35,006 nucleotides of DNA from Candidatus Delongbacteria bacterium (GTDB lineage: Bacteria > UBA4055): positions 1 to 35,006 of the forward strand of contig QKDR01000018.1 of assembly GCA_003252515.1 (NCBI GenBank), in the 5' to 3' direction. The notes under the pieces are model-generated. The model had not been told where the DNA came from and ran no database searches. It saw only the letters and a program-made list of their open reading frames with translations. How positions within the stretch are numbered: position 1 is the first letter of the stretch; the number at the start of each line of letters is the position of its first letter. The translations under genes were made by a program, and so were the position numbers. Positions 23,446 to 34,077 of the stretch are shown here, piece by piece.

Positions 23446-25218
23446 TTAGCCGTTAGGATTATGAAGGAACAAAGGTATAATTTCTTTAAGCTTTGATATT
23501 TTATCATCAGTTACCAGCAGTTCGTCTATCTGTCTGTTTAAAAGTTCAAGATCGTATTGTCTTGCCTGTGCTATAGTAATTGAATCGAATTCTGTTTTCT
23601 TATCAGATTCGGATATCAGAAGTTCCTCATACAGCTTCTCACCAGGTCTCAGACCTGTAAATTTGATGTCGATATCTTCTCTTCCTGCAAGACTCAGCAT
23701 GCTCTTTGCGAGATCAAGTATCTTAACGGGTTCACCCATATCAAGAATAAGTATCTCACCTTCTCTTCCTATCGAAGCTGCCTGAAGTACGAGCTGGCAT
23801 GCCTCAGGTATCAGCATGAAATACCTTGTCATTTCGGGATGAGTTATAGTTATAGGACCGCCTTGCTGTATCTGTTTTGTAAATTTCGGGATCACGGAAC
23901 CTGACGACCCAAGAACATTACCGAAACGTACTGAGCAGATCGCAGTTTCATTATGATTCATGTTCTGCGCATACAGTTCGCAGACTCGTTTCGTAGCTCC
24001 CATTACACTTGTAGGACGTACTGCTTTATCTGTTGAAATAAGAACGAATTTCTCGGCATGATATTTAACGGACAGATCGATGCAGTTCTTTGTCCCTATT
24101 ATGTTGTTCGTTATACCTTCGATCACATTATATTCGACCATCGGAACGTGCTTGTATGCGGCTGCATGAATTACGATCTGCGGTCTATACTTATCAAAAG
24201 TTGTTTCAAGATGATCTCTGTCTCTTACGGACTGAAGCACAGGGATCACATTATAATTGCTCAACTCTTCATTTATCAGATAAAGATCATATTCACTGTG
24301 ATCCAATATGACCAGCTGTTCGGCACCAAACTTACAAACCTGCCTGCATATCTCAGAACCTATGCTTCCTCCGCCGCCGGTTACCAGGATATTCTTCCCT
24401 TTAATAAAATTCCTTATTCTTTCTTCGTTAAGATCTTTGGGGTGTCTGGCCAAAAGATCTTTCACGTCTATATTCCTCAACTGAGTAAAAAAACTCTTGT
24501 CCTGAAGAATCTCTTTAAGTGACGGCAATATCCTGATCTCATAAAAATAGGGACTCAGCTCATCGTAAAATTTCCTGATCAACTTCTTATCACTAAGAGA
24601 AGGCATGGCGATCACTAATATATCCCTTTTAGGAAATTTGACTTTTTTTGCCGACTTGATATAGATATCCTTCGTAATGACATTTACTCCCTCAAGAGTC
24701 CTCTGACCTAGTTTATCATCGTCGTCAATAAAACAGACCACACGGAATATCGTATCAGAAAATTCTTCGAACAATTTCTGTCCCGCCTTACCCGCACCGT
24801 ATATAACTGCGGTTTTAGATTTCTTGGCAAGAGAAGTTATATATGCGAATCTATAGGTGAACATAGCGAAATTCTGAAGAAAAAGAAAGAAAATAAGCTC
24901 AAGAAGAAGCATCTTGAATATTATCACGGGATGTTTGAAAACCACGAAAAAGACAGGAAGTGAAAGAAGAAAAACAAGAATACCTATGAGATTTTTTTTC
25001 AGATATGATCTTGCGGTCGACGCCGACCATGATAATTTATAGTCGTTCAGTACTATGAAAGACAATATGATCCTCATAGAGAAAATAAAGATCAAATGGT
25101 TAAGATGAGTATCAAGTCCGAGGAAAGTGATAGCCGAAAAATAGCTGCAGATAGTAAGTGTCAGTGTGACAAGCACTGACAACAATCTCTTATCGGAAGA
25201 TCTCAAAGTGCTGATCAT
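23446..25218 (-). CDS. PglF/FlaA1-like UDP-GlcNAc 4,6-dehydratase (membrane-bound)
   Basis: First step of bacillosamine-type sugar synthesis: UDP-GlcNAc to the UDP-4-keto-6-deoxy sugar. The N-terminal region has four transmembrane helices, then a Rossmann-like domain (VIYGAGKAGQKLFEEF), then the extended SDR catalytic domain with NILVTGGGGSIGSEI. The catalytic set is T396, D397, K398 (STDKA), M406 and K410 (MGATK). Met in place of the usual SDR Tyr is characteristic of this dehydratase family. Length (590) and residue numbers run one ahead of Campylobacter PglF as I remember it, so the match is close. It lies four bases after the aminotransferase stop in a two-gene minus-strand operon. No terminator separates it from rel. 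CapD/WbpM-type enzymes are the alternative name. Confidence 0.93.
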   Translation of the reverse strand: MISTLRSSDKRLLSVLVTLTLTICSYFSAITFLGLDTHLNHLIFIFSMRIILSFIVLNDYKLSWSASTARSYLKKNLIGILVFLLSLPVFFVVFKHPVIIFKMLLLELIFFLFLQNFAMFTYRFAYITSLAKKSKTAVIYGAGKAGQKLFEEFSDTIFRVVCFIDDDDKLGQRTLEGVNVITKDIYIKSAKKVKFPKRDILVIAMPSLSDKKLIRKFYDELSPYFYEIRILPSLKEILQDKSFFTQLRNIDVKDLLARHPKDLNEERIRNFIKGKNILVTGGGGSIGSEICRQVCKFGAEQLVILDHSEYDLYLINEELSNYNVIPVLQSVRDRDHLETTFDKYRPQIVIHAAAYKHVPMVEYNVIEGITNNIIGTKNCIDLSVKYHAEKFVLISTDKAVRPTSVMGATKRVCELYAQNMNHNETAICSVRFGNVLGSSGSVIPKFTKQIQQGGPITITHPEMTRYFMLIPEACQLVLQAASIGREGEILILDMGEPVKILDLAKSMLSLAGREDIDIKFTGLRPGEKLYEELLISESDKKTEFDSITIAQARQYDLELLNRQIDELLVTDDKISKLKEIIPLFLHNPNG

Positions 25219-25222
25219 TCTC

Positions 25223-26377
25223 TTAATTCCTTGACTTTTTCAACATTCCGTTCACAATTACAATGATCTCTAAGATATCTCCGTCAGTCAGTTTCGTATC
25301 TGAAGGCAGACATAATCCGTCTCTGAACAACCTCTCTGAGGTTCCGTTCGAATAGGCGATGCATTTTTTGAAAACAGGCTGCATGTGCATAGGTTTCCAC
25401 AACGGTCTTGATTCAATATTGTATTTCAACAGTTCAAGTCTAATATCTTCCCTGTTCTTTCCGGTAATTTCAGTATCTATTAAAACCGATGTCAACCACC
25501 TGTTACCTTTTGAATCTTTTAGTTCCGGCTGAAAAATGAATCCCGACCCTTCAAAACCGGTTTTGTATATGTTGAATATCTCTCTTTTCCTTCTTACTCT
25601 GCTTTCCAGGACTCTGAGCTGTCCTCTTCCGATCCCCGCCAGGATGTTACTCATTCTGTAATTGTAACCTATTTGTGTATGCTCATAATGCGGAGCATTG
25701 TCCCTTGCCTGAGTCGCAAGGAATCTGGCTTTTTTACAGTAATCCTCATTATCGGAAACAAGCATCCCTCCGCCTGAAGTAGTAAGTATCTTGTTACCGT
25801 TAAAGGACAGTATTCCGACATCTCCGAAAGTACCGAGCTTTTTACCGTTAAGATCACTCCCGAGAGCTTCAGCAGCGTCTTCAATAAGTACGACCCCGTA
25901 TTTCCTGCATATTTTCTTTATCTCAATGATATTAGCTGCCTGACCGTAAAGATGTACTGCTATTACGGCTTTCGGATAAACACCTTTCTTCTTTTTCCTG
26001 TCGATGATCGCTTCTTCAAGAAGGGCAGGATCCATGTTCCATGTATCGGTCTCGCTGTCAATGAATACAGGATCAGCATGCTGATAAGCGATAGGGTTGG
26101 CGGATCCGGAAAATGTAAAACTTTGACAGACCACTTCGTCACCGGCTTTTACATCCGACATTATAAGAGCAAGATGAATTGCTGCGGTTCCGGAACTGAG
26201 AGCAGCCGCAGATTTAGTACCCAAATATAAGCACATCTCCTGTTCAAAGGCATCTACATTAGGTCCCAGAGGAGCCACCCAGTTAGAATCGAAAGCATCC
26301 TTAACGAACTTCTGTTCGTGATCTCCTATATGTGGTGAAGAAAGCCAAATTTTTTTGCGATCCAGAAAATCCCCCAT
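25223..26377 (-). CDS. PglE/EpsN-like UDP-4-keto sugar aminotransferase (DegT/DnrJ/EryC1 family)
   Basis: PLP enzyme that puts an amino group on C4 of the keto sugar made by the adjacent dehydratase. The N-terminus (KKIWLSSPHIGDHEQKFV, then NWVAPLGPNVDAFE) resembles Bacillus EpsN closely. ALSSGTAAIHLAL is the phosphate-binding region, LIEDAAEALGS carries the cofactor Asp, and the Schiff-base lysine is K196 in FNGNKILTTSGGGM. The 384-residue length is normal. It is the first gene of the minus-strand pair with the dehydratase, divergent from the outer-membrane-protein gene at 26533. It has no clear ribosome-binding site near the ATG. The acetyltransferase that would act next is 4.2 kb away on the other strand. 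Confidence 0.92.
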   Translation of the reverse strand: MGDFLDRKKIWLSSPHIGDHEQKFVKDAFDSNWVAPLGPNVDAFEQEMCLYLGTKSAAALSSGTAAIHLALIMSDVKAGDEVVCQSFTFSGSANPIAYQHADPVFIDSETDTWNMDPALLEEAIIDRKKKKGVYPKAVIAVHLYGQAANIIEIKKICRKYGVVLIEDAAEALGSDLNGKKLGTFGDVGILSFNGNKILTTSGGGMLVSDNEDYCKKARFLATQARDNAPHYEHTQIGYNYRMSNILAGIGRGQLRVLESRVRRKREIFNIYKTGFEGSGFIFQPELKDSKGNRWLTSVLIDTEITGKNREDIRLELLKYNIESRPLWKPMHMQPVFKKCIAYSNGTSERLFRDGLCLPSDTKLTDGDILEIIVIVNGMLKKSRN

Positions 26378-26532: not shown

Positions 26533-27795
26533 ATGAAAAGAATCCTGATCACTTTATTATTTCTCTACATCACAGGCAGCATTTTTGCATACCCTTTCAC
26601 AATTCCATATTTTGACGAGGAATTCTTTCTTTACCCTTATCTGAATTACGATCAGACCACTGAATGGAAAAAAGCAAGAGAGGGAAGGCTTTATGATGGC
26701 GGATTCGTTCAAACCAGCCACGGCAGTCAGACCACATGGCTTTTGATGAGCAGCGAAGAAGCCGTGATAAATCAGAATATAGGCGAAAAATTCTTATTCA
26801 GGTTCATGTATAGAGAACTTACCTCGAGACATCTCTCTTATAATAAAAAAATGTCGACGGTAGGAATAGGTTATAAAGTCAACAAACTTCTGACGGTATA
26901 TGCAGGAACGGATCTGACTTCCCGTAAGGAAGAAGTAGACGCGGGAACGGGTGTACTCTTCACTTTTCAGTCAGCTTACGCGTACTTCGATATTACTTTT
27001 GACGATCTTCTGTTCGATATCAAGAACCTTGGGAACGGTACCAGCAACAAATTACCTCTCACTTTTAACACGGATATAAGATTTTCTTTCAACAGACTTT
27101 ATTTTTATTTATCGGGAAAGTATGACACGGGAATTGACAGGGAATGGCTGCCTGGACCTTATACAGATATATTGAAGCACAGAAACCATGTCAGAGAACT
27201 GTACACTAGGATAGAATATGACATTTTGGATTATCTTAGATTATACCAGGAAAACCATTTAAACGATTTCTTCGACGCTAAGCGTTATAAAGACCTGAGT
27301 GTCTGGGATCCCGATTCGTCTTCATGGATTATTTATATACCGGAGATCTCGGAATATGAATTTTCTGCTAAAATGTCTGTGCACAAACTCGGAGGGATAT
27401 TCCGGATCAATGAGAAGAACTCGGTTGATGCCGGTTTAAGTTATGCCGCCACTGTTCACAAATTCGACCTTATAGATGGCGAGGCGCTGACGAACGGACA
27501 TGCAACAAGCTATACTATAGAATATCCCGCTTTTTTACCCTATATAATCTATAAATACCGCATTCACACTAAATTCACAGCGGAAGCGGCATACATGGGA
27601 TCATACACTGCGGAAGATTATAAAAACAATTATTATTATGAAAGATATGGTGAAGAATACTGGGATAAAGAACTACTGAAAATTGGATTCGAATTCAGAT
27701 TTTCCCCTAACTGCAGCCTATATATTTCAGCAGGACAGCTGATAAATACCGGTGTTTTCGGCGGAGGGAACGCAAGGTTCAATCTTTTTTTCTGA
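26533..27795 (+). CDS. Predicted outer-membrane beta-barrel protein, unknown function (420 aa)
   Basis: Family not recognised. A signal peptide (MKRILITLLFLYITGSIFA) precedes a mature chain rich in aromatic residues with alternating-hydrophobicity strands such as KLLTVYAGTDLTSR, RLYFYLSGKYDTG, RLYQENHLNDFF and CSLYISAGQLINTG. The protein ends GGGNARFNLFF: a terminal Phe on an amphipathic strand is the usual outer-membrane assembly signal. It could be a porin-like or glycan-export barrel. Being next to glycan genes makes the latter tempting, but nothing in the sequence proves it. Its promoter and ATG nearly touch (see 26498-26526). Confidence 0.75.
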   Translation: MKRILITLLFLYITGSIFAYPFTIPYFDEEFFLYPYLNYDQTTEWKKAREGRLYDGGFVQTSHGSQTTWLLMSSEEAVINQNIGEKFLFRFMYRELTSRHLSYNKKMSTVGIGYKVNKLLTVYAGTDLTSRKEEVDAGTGVLFTFQSAYAYFDITFDDLLFDIKNLGNGTSNKLPLTFNTDIRFSFNRLYFYLSGKYDTGIDREWLPGPYTDILKHRNHVRELYTRIEYDILDYLRLYQENHLNDFFDAKRYKDLSVWDPDSSSWIIYIPEISEYEFSAKMSVHKLGGIFRINEKNSVDAGLSYAATVHKFDLIDGEALTNGHATSYTIEYPAFLPYIIYKYRIHTKFTAEAAYMGSYTAEDYKNNYYYERYGEEYWDKELLKIGFEFRFSPNCSLYISAGQLINTGVFGGGNARFNLFF

Positions 27796-27845: not shown

Positions 27846-27849
27846 ACAT

Positions 27850-27871
27850 GCTCATTATGCTTGTAATGAGC
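27850..27871 (+). other. Perfect 8-bp hairpin in the leader of the 27902 gene
   Basis: GCTCATTA (27850-27857) pairs with TAATGAGC (27864-27871) around a six-base loop, at the very 5' end of the predicted transcript and 30 bases before the start codon. No T-run follows, so it is not a terminator. A stabilising 5' hairpin or a protein-binding site would fit. Confidence 0.5.
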
Positions 27872-27901
27872 GATAAAATTGCAAATAAGCGGGGTAAAAA
27901 T

Positions 27902-29122
27902 ATGAAAAAAGCTGTTATATTATTTTTGGTCACGATGATGACCCAGGTTGTCTTTGCTGAAATAAAAAAAGGCCCTGATACTAAGATCATAAAGAACAAA
28001 ATGGATGCCGGATTTTATTTTAACTATATTTTTAATTCGGCTGACATTCCGGTATCTACGACCGGCTTCGGGATACCTGTGCTTAAATATTATCTGGAAA
28101 CAGCTCAGGAAGAAACAAATAAGTTCTTCCTTAACGGAGATCTGGGTTATGACATGAGTAAAACGATCTATGACGGTGAGGTTCTCGAAGGAGAGGACAG
28201 GTACGCTTCCGTAATGTATCTCGATCTTGACCCTCAGTTCAGGTTTTACGTCACTGATGAAATGATGGCAAAATTCAGAGGCAGTAAGAAAGAAGAACCG
28301 AAAGACGACAACTGGAATGACTGGGTTGATACCGACATTGAAACTAAGGCCGATTCAAAGATAAAATGGTTCTTCGCTTTCGGACTTCCCCTGCTGTATG
28401 AGAACGTTACTCCACAGAACGAATCACTTGACTCCGAGGCACACAGCGCGGTCGATTTTACTATTAATTTCGGGATTGACAACAAACAGGTTGATATAAA
28501 GAAACTTTCACCCTGGGCTAAATTCCAGAAAGGATATTTCGTTTACGGTCTTTTTGAATACAGATTAAGCGAATCGTACGGTGATGAATCTCCTGAAAAA
28601 TTGCCCATGTTCTTCGGAACTGCGGGTGATTACGCTTATGAGCTTGATAACTGGGTCTCCAATGCGACCGCGAGAGGTTTTATGTCAGTAAAATATCAGC
28701 TCGCTGCAGACGCTATAGAGATCTTCCCCTGGGAATACACAATGGGTTATCAGGGAAACTACCTTGACCTGACTTTCGGCGTTGAATACGTTCAGGATTT
28801 TACCGACAAACTGAATCTCGTCGCATCTGTTTCAGGAACAACATGGCAGCTCGGAGACGACCCGGAAGGAGACAGTATCAACTCAATGAAATTCGACGCA
28901 ACGCTCAACTATTATTCCATCCCTGAACTCTGCGCTTTTGCCGGATTCGGGTTCGAAACGCATCTTAAAGAAGAAGACTCCACTCCTGACTATAGAGTTA
29001 CTTTAGGAGCCGCATATACTTTGGACTTCATCAAATTAAAGCAGAAAATGGCGCAGAAAAAAATCGAAACGCCAAAGAATGCTGATGAGGAAGAAGAAAC
29101 TTTCGACGATGAAGAGTGGTAG
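27902..29122 (+). CDS. Exported, probable outer-envelope protein with acidic C-terminus (406 aa)
   Basis: I do not recognise the family. I chose ATG 27902, which gives a clean signal peptide (MKKAVILFLVTMMTQVVFA). The upstream in-frame ATG at 27848 would put a hydrophilic segment before it and place the leader hairpin inside the gene. The mature chain shows beta-strand-like segments with aromatic residues (ADIPVSTTGFGIPVLKYYL, DLTFGVEYVQDF, YRVTLGAAYTLDF), suggesting a barrel. It ends with a Glu/Asp-rich tail (DEEEETFDDEEW), which is unlike a standard barrel C-terminus. It follows the 26533 barrel gene, and the two may form one envelope unit. A strong terminator follows. Confidence 0.75.
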   Translation: MKKAVILFLVTMMTQVVFAEIKKGPDTKIIKNKMDAGFYFNYIFNSADIPVSTTGFGIPVLKYYLETAQEETNKFFLNGDLGYDMSKTIYDGEVLEGEDRYASVMYLDLDPQFRFYVTDEMMAKFRGSKKEEPKDDNWNDWVDTDIETKADSKIKWFFAFGLPLLYENVTPQNESLDSEAHSAVDFTINFGIDNKQVDIKKLSPWAKFQKGYFVYGLFEYRLSESYGDESPEKLPMFFGTAGDYAYELDNWVSNATARGFMSVKYQLAADAIEIFPWEYTMGYQGNYLDLTFGVEYVQDFTDKLNLVASVSGTTWQLGDDPEGDSINSMKFDATLNYYSIPELCAFAGFGFETHLKEEDSTPDYRVTLGAAYTLDFIKLKQKMAQKKIETPKNADEEEETFDDEEW

Positions 29123-29140
29123 TAAATAATTATGTTATTT

Positions 29141-29165
29141 AAGCCCCTTTGAAGGGGCTTTTTTA
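29141..29165 (+). terminator. Intrinsic terminator after the 27902 gene
   Basis: AAGCCCCTT pairs with AAGGGGCTT, followed by a run of T residues (29159-29165). It separates the two envelope-protein genes from the maoC-citE-glycan operon. Confidence 0.92.
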
Positions 29166-29216: not shown

Positions 29217-29245
29217 AGTTGAACTTAAATGATTTATAGGTGATT

Positions 29246-29716
29246 ATGAAACCGAGTATATTAGGCAACTATTTTGAGGACTTCGAAAAAGGTGCAGTAA
29301 TTGAACATTCACTTTCAAAGACGATTTTCGAATCGGACAACAATTTTTTCTCATTATTAACGATGAACCACCATCCTGTTCATACAAATCTAGATTATGC
29401 GGAGAAAAACCAGCATGGAACAATACTAGTGGTCGGGACACTGGTATTCAGCATTGTTGTTGGTATGACAGTACCTGATATTAGCGGAAAAGCGATTGCT
29501 AATTTCGGGTATGAATCTGTCGAGCACCTAGCTCCTGTTCACATAAACGACACTTTATACGCCAGAACGACAGTACTATCAGTCGAACCTTCAATATCCA
29601 AACCAGACAGAGGTGTGGTCTATGTTGAGACAGTAGGATATAATCAGAAGAATGAGGATGTTCTCAGATTCAGAAGAAAAGTTTTAATAAAGAGGAGGCC
29701 TAATGAAATTTCATGA
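29246..29716 (+). CDS. MaoC-like (hot-dog fold) CoA hydratase/dehydratase
   Basis: Hot-dog-fold protein of the MaoC family, whose members hydrate enoyl-CoA or dehydrate hydroxyacyl-CoA. I chose ATG 29246 (TAGG five bases upstream) over GTG 29240, giving 156 residues. The active-site segment reads LTMNHHPVH (37-46 region), where classical R-hydratases have a GDxNPxH pattern: the catalytic Asp position is Asn41, while the His (H46) is kept. From memory this LTMNxHPxH form is typical of the MaoC branch that pairs with CitE-like lyases, as in Mycobacterium Rv2499c/Rv2498c. The gene overlaps the CitE-like gene by 14 bases. The substrate is unknown. Confidence 0.85.
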   Translation: MKPSILGNYFEDFEKGAVIEHSLSKTIFESDNNFFSLLTMNHHPVHTNLDYAEKNQHGTILVVGTLVFSIVVGMTVPDISGKAIANFGYESVEHLAPVHINDTLYARTTVLSVEPSISKPDRGVVYVETVGYNQKNEDVLRFRRKVLIKRRPNEIS

Positions 29717-30593
29717 GCATCTTATGAGAAGCATGATGTTCGTACCGGGACATAATGAAAGACTTATGCAGAGTGCTGCAAGGTCTAAGGCTGACGTTCT
29801 TCTTCTTGACATTGAAGATTCTGTCCAGCCGGTAGAGAATAAACAGAAATCACGCGATCTTATAATAAAAATGGTCTCCGAAGGTGCATTTAAAAACCAT
29901 CTCGTATTTCCAAGGGTCAATGACAGAGAATCCGGTCAATTGTTGAAAGATGTACATCAATTGACCATTGACGGTGTTCACGGGTTTATGTATCCCAAAT
30001 CTAAAAAAGGCGGCGACGTTTATTTTTTCGACAAACTGCTTGAAACAATAGAATACGAAAAAGGCATCCCCGTCGGAACATATAAGATAATACCTCTAAT
30101 AGAAACGACATCCGCTGTAATAAACGCTCAGGAAATATGCAAAGCCTCACCAAGGGTGGTCGCGATAGCGTTCGGCTGCGAGGATTTTGTAGGTGATCTT
30201 GGAGGAGTGCACGATCATGAAGGCAAAAGTATATTCAGTCCCCGAGCATGGATAGCTATGTCTGCAAAAGCTACTGGAGTAATACCTATCGATACCGTAC
30301 ATATCAGCGTACACGATCTGGATGATCTTGAAAAGAACATTATTCTTGCTAAAAACCTCGGGTTTGAAGGAATGCTCGTACTCAACCCGAAAGAACTCCC
30401 GCTAGTCCATCAGTACTACTCCCCTTCTGAAAAAGAGGTCGAGGATGCAAAAGAAATGCTAAGACTTTACGAAGAAGCTCAGACGGAAGGTAAAGGAGTA
30501 GCAATCATGAACGGCAAATTCATAGGCCCCCCTATGGTAATAATGGCGAAAAAGACTCTGCACAGACATAAACTTATTGAAAGTAAAAAATAG
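29703..30593 (+). CDS. CitE-like CoA-ester lyase/aldolase (HpcH/HpaI family)
   Basis: TIM-barrel enzyme of the malyl-CoA / citramalyl-CoA lyase group, which joins or splits an acyl-CoA and a keto acid such as glyoxylate or pyruvate. The N-terminal RSMMFVPGHNERLM and DVLLLDIEDSV motifs, the metal ligand E134 in LIETTSA, and D161 in GCEDFVGDLGG are all in place in 296 residues. No citrate-lyase alpha or gamma subunit is nearby, so citrate lyase is unlikely. The start has a perfect AGGAGG site inside the maoC-like gene. The neighbours downstream are glycan genes, so the product may be a CoA thioester used there; this is inference, and central-carbon use is equally possible. Confidence 0.88.
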   Translation: MKFHEHLMRSMMFVPGHNERLMQSAARSKADVLLLDIEDSVQPVENKQKSRDLIIKMVSEGAFKNHLVFPRVNDRESGQLLKDVHQLTIDGVHGFMYPKSKKGGDVYFFDKLLETIEYEKGIPVGTYKIIPLIETTSAVINAQEICKASPRVVAIAFGCEDFVGDLGGVHDHEGKSIFSPRAWIAMSAKATGVIPIDTVHISVHDLDDLEKNIILAKNLGFEGMLVLNPKELPLVHQYYSPSEKEVEDAKEMLRLYEEAQTEGKGVAIMNGKFIGPPMVIMAKKTLHRHKLIESKK

Positions 30594-30600
30594 ATTTTTC

Positions 30601-31257
30601 ATGAAGAAAGTTGTTATCTTAGGTGGTAAAGGTATCGGTATGATCGCATCATCTATCATTGACAGGATCGGCGATGCTTATGTTATCGGTTTTCTTAACG
30701 ATAATATTGATAAAGGAACTTTGATCGGGAAATATAAAAAAATTGAAGTTATAGGTAAAACAGTAGATTTGCCACAATACTTAGAAAACGATGATACTTA
30801 TGTATTTATTGCTTATGTGGGGTTTAAATATGAAAAAAGAATGTATCAGAAAATTCTTTCTCTGAATATTCCTAATGATAAATTCTACAACATAATCGAT
30901 CCTAATTCGATAATTCCTAAAGACTACTGTAAAATTGGAAACGGTGTTCTTATCGCACCTTATGCCCAGTTAAGCCCTGATTCTACAATTTCTGATAATT
31001 GCATACTTCTTGCTAACTCTTTTGTGGGACATGATACTTTTCTTGATCACTTTGCCCACCTGGCTACTAATGCTGTAGTCGGAGCAGATGTTCATGTCGG
31101 GAAAATGGTTCATATTGGAAGCAATGCTACGATTAGAGAATGTGTTAATGTCGGAGATTATAGCATTGTAGGAGGAGGAGCTGTAGTTACTAAAGATGTT
31201 CCTGAGAATTGCATTGTTGTAGGCAACCCAGCCAGAATTCTTAAAGAAAAAGAATAA
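30601..31257 (+). CDS. PglD/NeuD-like sugar N-acetyltransferase
   Basis: Left-handed beta-helix acyltransferase that would N-acylate the 4-amino sugar, the third bacillosamine step. An N-terminal Rossmann-like half (VVILGGKGIGMIASSII) binds the nucleotide sugar. The C-terminal hexapeptide repeats (IGNGVLIAPYAQL onward, ending GAVVTKDVPENCIVVGNPARIL) bind acyl-CoA. The likely catalytic base H144, its partner D145 and H153 have the spacing of H125, E126 and H134 in Campylobacter PglD. ATG 30601 is chosen over a TTG inside citE; it lies eight bases after the citE stop. There is no obvious ribosome-binding site. DNA is noticeably more AT-rich from here on. Confidence 0.9.
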   Translation: MKKVVILGGKGIGMIASSIIDRIGDAYVIGFLNDNIDKGTLIGKYKKIEVIGKTVDLPQYLENDDTYVFIAYVGFKYEKRMYQKILSLNIPNDKFYNIIDPNSIIPKDYCKIGNGVLIAPYAQLSPDSTISDNCILLANSFVGHDTFLDHFAHLATNAVVGADVHVGKMVHIGSNATIRECVNVGDYSIVGGGAVVTKDVPENCIVVGNPARILKEKE

Positions 31258-31269
31258 ACGGATTCGGAT

Positions 31270-31872
31270 TTGTATAAAATCATAAAAAGACTTATAGATA
31301 TTTTCTCCTCATTTTTTGGCTTACTGTTTCTTTTACCATTTATGATTATTGTATCAATCCTTATATTTATCAAAATGGGTAATCCCATATTTTTTACTCA
31401 GAAAAGGCCGGGGTTAAAAGGCAGGATCTTTAAGATAATCAAATTCAGAACAATGCTGAATACAAAAGATGGAAATGGAAATTTATTGCCTGACAGAATG
31501 CGTAAGACAAAATTAGGCACATTCCTACGAACAACAAGTATAGACGAGCTACCAGAACTGATAAACGTACTCAAAGGCAATATGAGCTTAGTAGGACCAA
31601 GACCACTTTTGATAGAATATCTCCCTCTCTACAACGAAAGACAGGCAAAAAGACATGATGTTAGACCCGGAATAACCGGTTTCGCACAAGTAAGCGGAAG
31701 AAATTCTATTACTTGGGATGAAAAATTCGAAAAGGATGTATATTATATTGAAAATATGAGTTTACTGCTTGATATAAAAATTTTATTTCTTACATTAAAA
31801 AAAGTCTTCATTAAAGAAGGTATAAACTTCGATAGCGAAACAAAAAACAACAGATTTTCAGGCACTAAATGA
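31270..31872 (+). CDS. PglC-like phosphoglycosyl transferase (monotopic sugar transferase), TTG start
   Basis: Transfers a phospho-sugar from a UDP-sugar to undecaprenyl phosphate at the inner membrane, starting glycan assembly. Being 200 residues long it is the minimal PglC/EpsL type. One re-entrant hydrophobic segment (GLLFLLPFMIIVSILIFI) is followed by the catalytic domain with FKIIKFRTM, the D92-E93 dyad (DELPELINVLKGNMS; Campylobacter PglC has D93-E94), VGPRPLL and VRPGITGFAQVSGRN. The only start giving the family N-terminus is TTG at 31270, 12 bases after the acetyltransferase stop. The stop overlaps the next gene's ATG (ATGA). Confidence 0.93.
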   Translation: MYKIIKRLIDIFSSFFGLLFLLPFMIIVSILIFIKMGNPIFFTQKRPGLKGRIFKIIKFRTMLNTKDGNGNLLPDRMRKTKLGTFLRTTSIDELPELINVLKGNMSLVGPRPLLIEYLPLYNERQAKRHDVRPGITGFAQVSGRNSITWDEKFEKDVYYIENMSLLLDIKILFLTLKKVFIKEGINFDSETKNNRFSGTK

Positions 31873-33089
31873 AAAAGATCTTATTTCTTACACTTGCGAA
31901 TTTCGAAGATATTAATAAGCGTGGTATTTACCCAGATCTCGTCAGAACTCTCGCAGATAATAATTGTGAAGTATTTGTTGTTACTCCAAGAGAAAAAAGA
32001 ACAAGACTAAATACAGAATTATCCGAATATAAAAACATTAAGGTTCTAAAAGTTAAAACTGGTAATATCACGAAGTGTAATTTTATACAAAAAGGTATAT
32101 CTACTCTTAGAATTGAATCACAGTTTTTTAAAGCAATAAAGAAGTATTTGAATGAAACTAAATTTGATATGGTAATGTACTCAACACCACCAATAACATT
32201 TATAAAAATTATTGAATATATTAAAAAACGGGATAAAACAATCTCTTATCTTATTCTTAAAGATATTTTCCCTCAGAATGCAGTTGATATTGAACTTATA
32301 AAACGAGACGGATTACTTCACAAATATTTCAGGAAGAAAGAAAAGAAGCTTTATGATATTTCAGATCATATTGGATGTATGTCCGAAGGAAATGTTAGAT
32401 ATATACTCTCAAATAATCCAGAATTAAGTAAAGAAAAATTAGAAGTTTTTCCAAATTCAATCATACCGATCGAAAGACAAAAAAGAAAACAAAAATACCC
32501 TGAGATTTTAAAAAAATATAATATTCCTGAGAACTCGGTTTTATTTGTTTACGGCGGTAACCTCGGAAAACCGCAGGGAATAAACTTCCTGCTTGAAGTC
32601 GCGGATAACTTTTATAAAGTCGAAAACGGATACCTGCTGATAGTAGGCAGCGGTACAGAATATAATAGAATACAAAAACACATTGTAGAAAGAAAAACAA
32701 AGAATTGTACCTTATTAAACATACTGCCGAAAAAAGAATATGATCAACTTATTAACAACGCTGATGTCGGTCTGATATTCTTAGATAATAGGTTCACAAT
32801 ACCTAACTTCCCTTCAAGACTTACTTCATATATGGAAAATTCGATGCCAATATTAGCTGCAACTGATTCTGTAACAGATATAAAAGATGTCATTGTCAAA
32901 TCAGGCAGCGGGTTCTGGTCAGAAAGCGGAGATATAAACAGTATTATCTATAATGCGAATATATTATCAAAAGATACGGAACTCCGAACTAAAATGAGTG
33001 AAAACAGTAGAAAGTATCTTGAAGATAATTATGATATAAGAAATTGCATAAAAATTCTACTAAGAGATTATGAACATAATGGTCTTTAA
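31869..33089 (+). CDS. Glycosyltransferase, GT4 family (WbuB/WcaI-like)
   Basis: GT-B-fold retaining glycosyltransferase of 406 residues. The N-domain has MVMYSTPPITFIKIIEYI and LILKDIFPQNAVDI, wording typical of WbuB-type enzymes that add a sugar to an amino-sugar acceptor. The C-domain has VFVYGGNLGKPQGINFLLEVA, LLIVGSGTEYNRI and FPSRLTSYMENSMPILAA. It probably adds the second sugar to the lipid-linked amino sugar made by the preceding gene product; the exact donor is not readable. Its ATG overlaps the previous stop by four bases and its stop lies within the next gene, so translation is coupled. Confidence 0.88.
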   Translation: MKKILFLTLANFEDINKRGIYPDLVRTLADNNCEVFVVTPREKRTRLNTELSEYKNIKVLKVKTGNITKCNFIQKGISTLRIESQFFKAIKKYLNETKFDMVMYSTPPITFIKIIEYIKKRDKTISYLILKDIFPQNAVDIELIKRDGLLHKYFRKKEKKLYDISDHIGCMSEGNVRYILSNNPELSKEKLEVFPNSIIPIERQKRKQKYPEILKKYNIPENSVLFVYGGNLGKPQGINFLLEVADNFYKVENGYLLIVGSGTEYNRIQKHIVERKTKNCTLLNILPKKEYDQLINNADVGLIFLDNRFTIPNFPSRLTSYMENSMPILAATDSVTDIKDVIVKSGSGFWSESGDINSIIYNANILSKDTELRTKMSENSRKYLEDNYDIRNCIKILLRDYEHNGL

Positions 33090-34077
33090 TGTTGCCGCTG
33101 AAAATAGAGGCGCATTATCAATACTGAATGATTTTTATGAAGAATTTAAAAAAGACTCTTCGAATAACTATTTCATAGTTCTCAGTAAACCAGATTTGCC
33201 CGAAATTGATAACATAAAAGTCCTAAGATTCCCATGGGTAAAAAAAAACTGGCTATACCGTTTATATTTTGATTGTTTCGTGGCAGGAAAGCTTGTAGAA
33301 GCAAATAATATTGACGAAGTATTCTCAATGCAGAACATTGCTATACCAAAAATAAAAGTGAGACAAAAAATCTATTTACATCAACCTTTACCTTTTGTTG
33401 ATATCAGGTTTAGTTTATTTAAATATCCGCTGCTCTGGGTATATCAAAACATAGTAAGTAAGCTAATATATAGGTCAATTAGAATCGCTGATGAAGTAAT
33501 TGTACAGACAGAGTGGATGAAAAAAGCGTGCGTTAATAGGGCAAATATTATCGATTTGGACAAAATAAAAATCTTACCACCAAAAATAAATATCGGAATT
33601 AAGAAAAAATATATAAAGAATATAGATGATATTTCTACTTTTTTTTACCCTGCTAGCGGTGTCTTTTTTAAAAATCATAATGTGATTATTGAGGCCTGTA
33701 AGATATTAAGAAATGAGAATATAACAAATTATAAAGTCGTTTTTAGCTTAAATGGAAATGAGAACACGAATATCTCTAAACTTAAAGATAAATGCTTAGA
33801 TCTTGGTTTGCCTGTCATTTTTGCCGGTAACCTTAGCAGAGAAGAGGTGTTCGAGTATTATTCAATATCTTTACTAATATTTCCTTCTTATATCGAGACA
33901 TTCGGATTACCTCTGCTTGAAGCGAAATTACACGATACTCCAATTATTGCATCTGATTGCCCTTTCTCGCACGAAATACTCGATAATTATAATAATGTTG
34001 TTTTCTTTAATCCTTTTAATCCGTATGAATTAGCAGATCTGATGATCAATAATATAAGAAACATTGTAGAACTATGA
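33070..34077 (+). CDS. Glycosyltransferase, GT4 family
   Basis: A 335-residue GT-B protein. The first half is strongly AT-rich and poorly conserved. The C-terminal half has the Glycos_transf_1 pattern FFYPASGVFFKNHNVIIEA, VIFAGNLSREEVFEYYS, and IETFGLPLLEAKLHDTPIIA with the donor-binding Glu region. Two starts are possible: ATG 33070 (20-base overlap with the previous gene) or ATG 33079. The family N-terminus does not decide, and I keep the longer one. Its stop overlaps the next ATG. The donor sugar is unknown. Confidence 0.87.
   Translation: MNIMVFNVAAENRGALSILNDFYEEFKKDSSNNYFIVLSKPDLPEIDNIKVLRFPWVKKNWLYRLYFDCFVAGKLVEANNIDEVFSMQNIAIPKIKVRQKIYLHQPLPFVDIRFSLFKYPLLWVYQNIVSKLIYRSIRIADEVIVQTEWMKKACVNRANIIDLDKIKILPPKINIGIKKKYIKNIDDISTFFYPASGVFFKNHNVIIEACKILRNENITNYKVVFSLNGNENTNISKLKDKCLDLGLPVIFAGNLSREEVFEYYSISLLIFPSYIETFGLPLLEAKLHDTPIIASDCPFSHEILDNYNNVVFFNPFNPYELADLMINNIRNIVEL

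Follow-up and report, generated by a model that had tools for sequence, protein, structure and literature searches.

A pair of adjacent genes in a Candidatus Delongbacteria bacterium (contig QKDR01000018.1), which encode a MaoC-like hydratase/dehydratase and a CitE-like coenzyme A (CoA)-ester lyase homologue, probably makes an unusual decoration for bacterial surface glycans. The stretch of DNA analyzed here, hereinafter the window, is the entire 35006-base contig. The explanation that accounts best for the data as a whole, and that we consider moderately probable, is that this pair is a portable acyl-donor cassette. Serotype and recognition of surface glycans in bacteria are shaped by unusual N-acyl groups of the amino sugars; few acyl-donor genes for such groups are known.

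Distribution and genomic context of the MaoC-CitE pair

One genome per species was scanned with peptide patterns of the query, which favor close relatives, and 67 loci with this CitE subfamily (49-89% identity) were identified, in about eleven phyla of bacteria and in a single archaeal metagenome-assembled genome (MAG). The carriers are mostly Bacteroidota and Cloacimonadota, along with Delongbacteria, Calditrichota, Ignavibacteriota, Electryoneota, Omnitrophota, Balneolota, Akkermansia and single records of Bacillota, Actinomycetota and Woesearchaeota, by MAG assignment as filed. Cultured carriers include Algoriphagus marincola DSM 16067, Sunxiuqinia elliptica, Gelidibacter sediminis DSM 28135 and Lishizhenia tianjinensis. 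The cassette on the contig filed as Woesearchaeota (L014) could reflect either transfer or a binning error. In the family to which Gelidibacter belongs, 4 of 351 genomes carry the subfamily (E<=1e-60), and the window's own family includes 3 close and 1 distant carriers among 13 genomes; given this sparse occurrence, the cassette looks mobile. A phage or plasmid origin of the pair is unsupported: CitE homologues in phage records are all distant (24-35% identity), and the MaoC relatives on plasmids show less than 60% identity.

Neighboring genes were counted by uniform tblastn of the 67 loci, within 8 kb for acyltransferases and aminotransferases. A MaoC gene is located beside CitE in 63 of the 67 loci, and this arrangement is far beyond chance. 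A sugar acyltransferase is also encoded in 63 loci (NeuD/PglD-type in 56, AAC(3)-type in 6 and WbpD-type in 2), and a sugar aminotransferase in 48. In 34 of 64 loci, the acyltransferase gene is the immediate neighbor of the pair, compared to 11.7 expected (standard deviation 2.9, maximum 28) from 10,000 within-locus shuffles of the gene order, a statistic in which shared ancestry remains. The distances between MaoC proteins and those between CitE proteins are correlated (r of 0.62, or 0.35 minus the most divergent loci, with none of 2000 shuffles as high), and the correlation between the CitE and PglD distances is weak (0.22). Several NeuD/PglD lineages have been recruited as the linked acyltransferase, with about seven changes between the adjacent and non-adjacent states on the tree.

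The sequence-only reading of the window had proposed that the pair makes or tailors an acyl-CoA for an amino sugar and had raised the question of whether the pair occurs mostly in unrelated contexts. The survey of the 67 loci yielded the opposite outcome, and the second CitE homologue of the same genome sits in a citrate-lyase-type operon. With the acyltransferase and aminotransferase linkage and the second CitE elsewhere, the proposal is well supported by context; its weaker part is the identity of the acyl group, and the CitE-like protein has lost the lid Asp considered below.

The amino-sugar pathways encoded beside the pair vary. According to family matches, some of them below cut-off, these pathways are of the viosamine/Fuc4N, bacillosamine, 3-amino-3,6-dideoxyhexose, pseudaminic acid and GlcNAc3NA types, and the neighbor sets include a DesI-like protein with RmlB (viosamine type), WecE-like proteins, LegC, FdtA pairs, PseB/C/F/G/I and WbpE-like proteins. 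For example, a DesI-like aminotransferase accompanies the window's PglD clade in most of its loci, and the window's sister genome (G001) encodes a WbpE/WbpD-like set near the pair. In three loci (L016, L050 and L042), the cassette is embedded in an operon for pseudaminic acid; the only candidates for PseH in these three genomes are GNAT matches, all below the PseH cut-off. That the acyl group is supplied by the pair is argued mainly from this combination of a constant pair, a constant requirement for an acyltransferase and a changing sugar pathway.

The same pattern, with the acyltransferase as the constant partner, is difficult to reconcile with a pair that acts on the sugar, in which pyruvate aldolase activity of CitE and dehydratase activity of MaoC would yield an unusual keto-sugar or nonulosonate. 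The HpcH/HpaI family does include pyruvate aldolases, and nonulosonate genes are present in some loci, but both sequence and fold point to the CoA-ester branches for the two proteins, so that this possibility appears very improbable. Chance occurrence in glycan clusters of a catabolic pair, which would function in itaconate/citramalate degradation or acetyl-CoA recycling in the manner of RipB-RipC, seems very improbable as well. Plasmid-borne MaoC relatives, with 44-49% identity, do have genes for CoA-transferase, MmgE/PrpD and CoA-ester lyase as neighbors. However, by inspection, no CoA-transferase gene was found among the open reading frames (ORFs) of the 35-kb contig, some of which were profiled, and the pair is linked to sugar acyltransferases throughout most of the survey, recurring within several different amino-sugar operons.

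Some of the loci contain additional genes. Thirteen of the 67 loci contain a second, shorter CitE-like gene (CitE2, about 270 amino acids), in most cases right ahead of MaoC; it is directly 5' of MaoC in L016, L021, L024, L027, L034, L040, L050, L060, L066, L104, L105 and L106, and CitE2-MaoC-CitE-PglD is a frequent gene order in these loci. In L114, a related locus from the window's family (G009), CitE2 and a diverged CitE (39% identity) are followed directly by an AAC(3)-like acyltransferase. In four Cloacimonadota loci (L061, L063, L065 and L067), the cluster of the pair contains genes for a NadA-family protein (quinolinate synthase) and a PaaK/CapK-like ligase.

Sequence and structural features of the two proteins

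The MaoC-like protein matches the Pfam families MaoC_dehydratas (59.9 bits) and MC_hydratase (63.2 bits), in the latter case covering positions 21-167 of the 353-position profile; it is a protein of 156 amino acids rather than a two-domain protein of about 350 residues. Its best NCBIfam match is RipB/Ich (NF038241, 136.7 bits, under the 340-bit cut-off), and its AlphaFold2 model (mean predicted local distance difference test score, pLDDT, 93.5) retrieves in Foldseek the single-domain MaoC proteins 1q6w, 4ffu and 4e3e as well as MeaC (8hgn). The catalytic positions are occupied by Asn41 (codon 29366-29368) and His46 within LTMNHHPVH, and the subfamily motif LTMNxHPxH has Asn and His at these positions. 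In the mesaconyl-CoA hydratase MeaC, for which a structure with bound malic acid is available, the catalytic pair is Asn226/His231 (PMC10164722). The motif, which matches that of mesaconyl/itaconyl-CoA-type enzymes, fits a malyl/citramalyl-like product. MaoC relatives encoded in operons together with a CoA-transferase and a CoA-ester lyase share this Asn/His pair; Asn instead of Asp, being common to these outside relatives and MeaC, is ruled out as a hallmark of the glycan-linked subfamily.

The CitE-like protein matches HpcH_HpaI in Pfam (137.5 bits) and, among the NCBIfam models, citE (TIGR01588, 199.8 bits, under the 443.4 cut-off), followed by the RipC/Ccl citramalyl-CoA lyase (NF038242, 113.5 bits, under the 375 cut-off). 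Its AlphaFold2 model (pLDDT 94.2) adopts the TIM-barrel fold of CitE and malyl-CoA lyase (MCL), and the Foldseek matches are malyl-CoA lyases and human CLYBL, with template modeling (TM) scores of about 0.86. The residues of the Mg/carboxylate site, Asp36, Glu38, Asp39, Arg71, Glu134 and Asp161, are at least 97% conserved in the subfamily; they were matched by alignment to Asp42, Glu44, Asp45, Arg76, Glu141 and Asp168 of the malyl-CoA lyase MCLR, and the roles of the Mg/oxoacid-binding residues are taken from the work on that enzyme (PMC3832036). In sequence and in the models, both proteins resemble enzymes of C4-C6 hydroxydicarboxylyl-CoA metabolism (RipB/RipC, MeaC, malyl-CoA lyase), and the pair appears suited to CoA esters of the malyl, citramalyl or mesaconyl type.

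Predicted function of the cassette

It is quite likely that the product of the pair is an acyl-CoA used by the acyltransferase; that this product carries a dicarboxylyl group is a weaker proposition, for which we consider the chances evenly balanced. CitE would condense a 2-oxoacid, likeliest pyruvate, with acetyl-CoA or a different short acyl-CoA to form a citramalyl-type CoA; MaoC would then dehydrate the latter (to the mesaconyl/itaconyl type) or set its hydroxyl; and the adjoining PglD-type enzyme would move the C4-C6 (hydroxy)dicarboxylyl group onto the amino group of a nucleotide-linked sugar. The predicted acceptor in the window is UDP-QuiNAc4N, which the PglF-like and LegC-like enzymes would produce and the PglC-like transferase would subsequently receive. 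As for the specific group, citramalyl, mesaconyl or itaconyl has a low probability but ranks ahead of malyl or fumaryl, which is less likely still. Among 11 carrier genomes, 9 gave no match to isocitrate lyase (the window's genome and 8 of the 10 others), and pyruvate is therefore more likely than glyoxylate as the partner; the glyoxylate cycle is disfavored as the origin of a general co-substrate, and other sources of glyoxylate are possible.

Several observations weigh against this scheme. By tblastn, MaoC was not found in L028, L035 and L047 (it was also missed in L002, where the contig begins at CitE) nor in the related locus L114, and no acyltransferase matched the queries used in L009, L017 and L018. 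Furthermore, the position of the lid Asp (Asp299 of MCLR) is occupied in the CitE-like protein by Gly275 (codon 30525-30527, GPP motif), as in at least 97% of the subfamily, whereas the citrate-lyase CitE of the same genome retains this Asp. The lid Asp is said to be conserved across the CitE-like superfamily, with a presumed role in the first step of the reaction, and Glu at this position is characteristic of malyl-CoA thioesterases (PMC3832036). RipC (3qll) has Asp, and an Azospirillum relative has Glu. Because of the replacement by Gly275, plain lyase chemistry of the CitE-like protein cannot be assumed.

The citrate-lyase-type operon of the window's genome is separate (contig C135 of G000; positions 17-1222 and 1212-2768 of locus L117). 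Its first protein, of 401 amino acids, contains a C-terminal CitE part (MIDPPV, lid Asp), preceded by an N-terminal stretch that looks like CitD, and is followed by a CitF-like ORF; no CitD or CitF partners are present among the window ORFs.

The near-universal loss of the lid Asp in the subfamily is compatible with a CitE that does not condense acetyl-CoA and instead functions as a thioesterase, in proofreading or in binding, such that MaoC alone would convert a metabolic enoyl-CoA to a 3-hydroxyacyl-CoA, or provide the dehydrated form, for the acyltransferase. The lid residue of CitE2, Glu or Thr in the aligned copies, points in the same direction, Glu being the residue of the malyl-CoA thioesterases (PMC3832036). 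However, the Mg/oxoacid site, with Glu134, Asp161, Glu38, Asp39 and Arg71 invariant, would not be needed by a mere binder, and CitE persists in loci where MaoC was not found (L028, L035 and L114); on balance, a non-condensing CitE is unlikely. The broadest form of the acyl-donor proposal is possible, if rather doubtful: the cassette would be independent of the sugar and spread horizontally, and a CitE without the lid Asp, together with MaoC, would produce (hydroxy)dicarboxylyl-CoA from which different acyltransferases modify at least 5 kinds of amino sugars, giving surface glycans negatively charged N-acyl groups, with a new catalytic acid/base in CitE, for which His170 and Asp171 of the GGVHD loop are candidates.

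If the acyl-donor proposal is correct, the pair can serve as a genetic marker of one such N-acyl group in cultured and uncultured bacteria of many phyla, amide-linked malic and related acids in O-antigens become testable at the gene level, and a CitE-family enzyme has a chemistry that differs from the textbook mechanism.

Organization of the locus

The features of the window are listed in Table 1. The overlap of the MaoC-like and CitE-like genes and the short distance to the acyltransferase, given as eight bases in the sequence-only reading, were confirmed: the two ORFs share 14 nucleotides, GAGGAGG immediately precedes the CitE-like start, and the first ATG of the acyltransferase is 7 nucleotides past the CitE stop (8 by subtraction of 30593 from 30601). 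An alternative in-frame start of MaoC, GTG, is at 29240. The pair heads the operon because the hairpin closes the upstream genes, and the PglC-like and two GT4 genes downstream agree with the earlier assignment to a single operon with glycan genes; the absence of other CoA-metabolism genes nearby holds as well, none being seen among the window ORFs. The LegC-type aminotransferase and PglF-like dehydratase genes are divergent and lie 3 kb upstream, so that, together with the acyltransferase operon, every step to UDP-QuiNAc4N and lipid transfer is represented by family.

Table 1. Features of the pair, its operon and the linked amino-sugar genes in the window
Feature	Position	Strand	Evidence and remarks
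PglF/WbpM-type nucleotide-sugar 4,6-dehydratase	23446..25218	-	Polysacc_synt_2 396.5 bits; PseB 187.6 bits, below cut-off
LegC/PglE-type DegT aminotransferase, predicted 4-amino sugar source	25223..26377	-	DegT 320.8 bits; TIGR04181 384.7 bits (cut-off 420)
Intrinsic-terminator-like hairpin, 5' of operon	29141..29160	+	Sequence scan
MaoC-like hydratase/dehydratase	29246..29716	+	156 amino acids, single hot-dog domain; ORF (start ATG) and Pfam
CitE-like CoA-ester lyase homologue	29703..30593	+	296 amino acids; HpcH_HpaI
PglD/NeuD/VioB-type left-handed beta-helix sugar N-acyltransferase	30601..31257	+	TIGR03570, PglD_N, VioB match
PglC-like phosphoglycosyl transferase, predicted acceptor of acylated UDP-sugar	31270..31872	+	Bac_transf 212.8 bits
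Glycosyltransferase, GT4 family	31869..33089	+	Glycos_transf_1
Glycosyltransferase, GT4 family	33070..34077	+	Glycos_transf_1
Last operon ORF, cut by contig end	34074..35006	+	ORF call

The acyltransferase matches the Pfam families Hexapep (65.8 bits) and PglD_N (25.8 bits, above its cut-off) and scores 158.4 bits against the NeuD/PglD family TIGR03570 (cut-off 160.8); its best sequence match in the PDB is VioB (7txp). The predicted catalytic His152 (numbering from TTG 30577) is kept in 51 of 53 relatives. Two window ORFs, 26533-27795 and 27848-29122, have signal-peptide-like starts and no Pfam match above cut-off; judged by eye only, they are perhaps outer-membrane proteins. There is no evidence for a toxin encoded by the latter ORF, the CARDS_D3 match being below cut-off (23.6 of 27 bits).

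Comparison with known systems

A similar known arrangement is RipB/RipC, in which the same two protein families adjoin and which provides the top (MaoC) and second (CitE) NCBIfam matches. The window proteins differ in scoring far under the equivalog cut-offs, in the lack of a CoA-transferase and in the glycan context, and RipC (3qll) retains the lid Asp that the window CitE lacks. The combination of malyl-CoA lyase and MeaC in the ethylmalonyl-CoA pathway resembles the pair in the folds of both proteins, in the Asn and His of MeaC and in the malyl-CoA lyase metal site; in contrast, MeaC has two hot-dog domains, compared to one here, and malyl-CoA lyase has the lid Asp.

The anthrose operon, which encodes an enoyl-CoA hydratase, an aminotransferase and an acyltransferase, is similar in outline, in that the gene for an enzyme that tailors acyl-CoA neighbors one for an acyltransferase of amino sugars; its hydratase, however, belongs to the crotonase family, and the operon is not known to include a CitE.

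In the literature, we found no paper that joins a MaoC-CitE pair to a glycan (O-antigen or polysaccharide context). N-malyl amino sugars have been described in the O-polysaccharides of the marine Gram-negative bacteria Pseudoalteromonas rubra and Vibrio vulnificus (PMC3210612). The product predicted for the pair is of this kind, with a hydroxydicarboxylic acid in amide linkage to an amino sugar; N-malyl is known there from structures, with no gene tied to it in the papers found. In the O-antigen loci of Flavobacterium psychrophilum, R-group gene sets (wfpC-G) are swapped beside a PglD homologue, together with PglE/PglF, and the predicted activity of this homologue is N-acylation of UDP-QuiNAc4N by a group other than acetyl (PMC6519341). 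As in the window, a set of acyl-donor genes adjoins a PglD homologue, but the F. psychrophilum sets encode an acyl carrier protein, ketosynthases and a ketoreductase instead of a CoA-type hydratase and lyase. By this analogy, the MaoC-CitE pair would be the CoA-based counterpart of the F. psychrophilum R-group sets.
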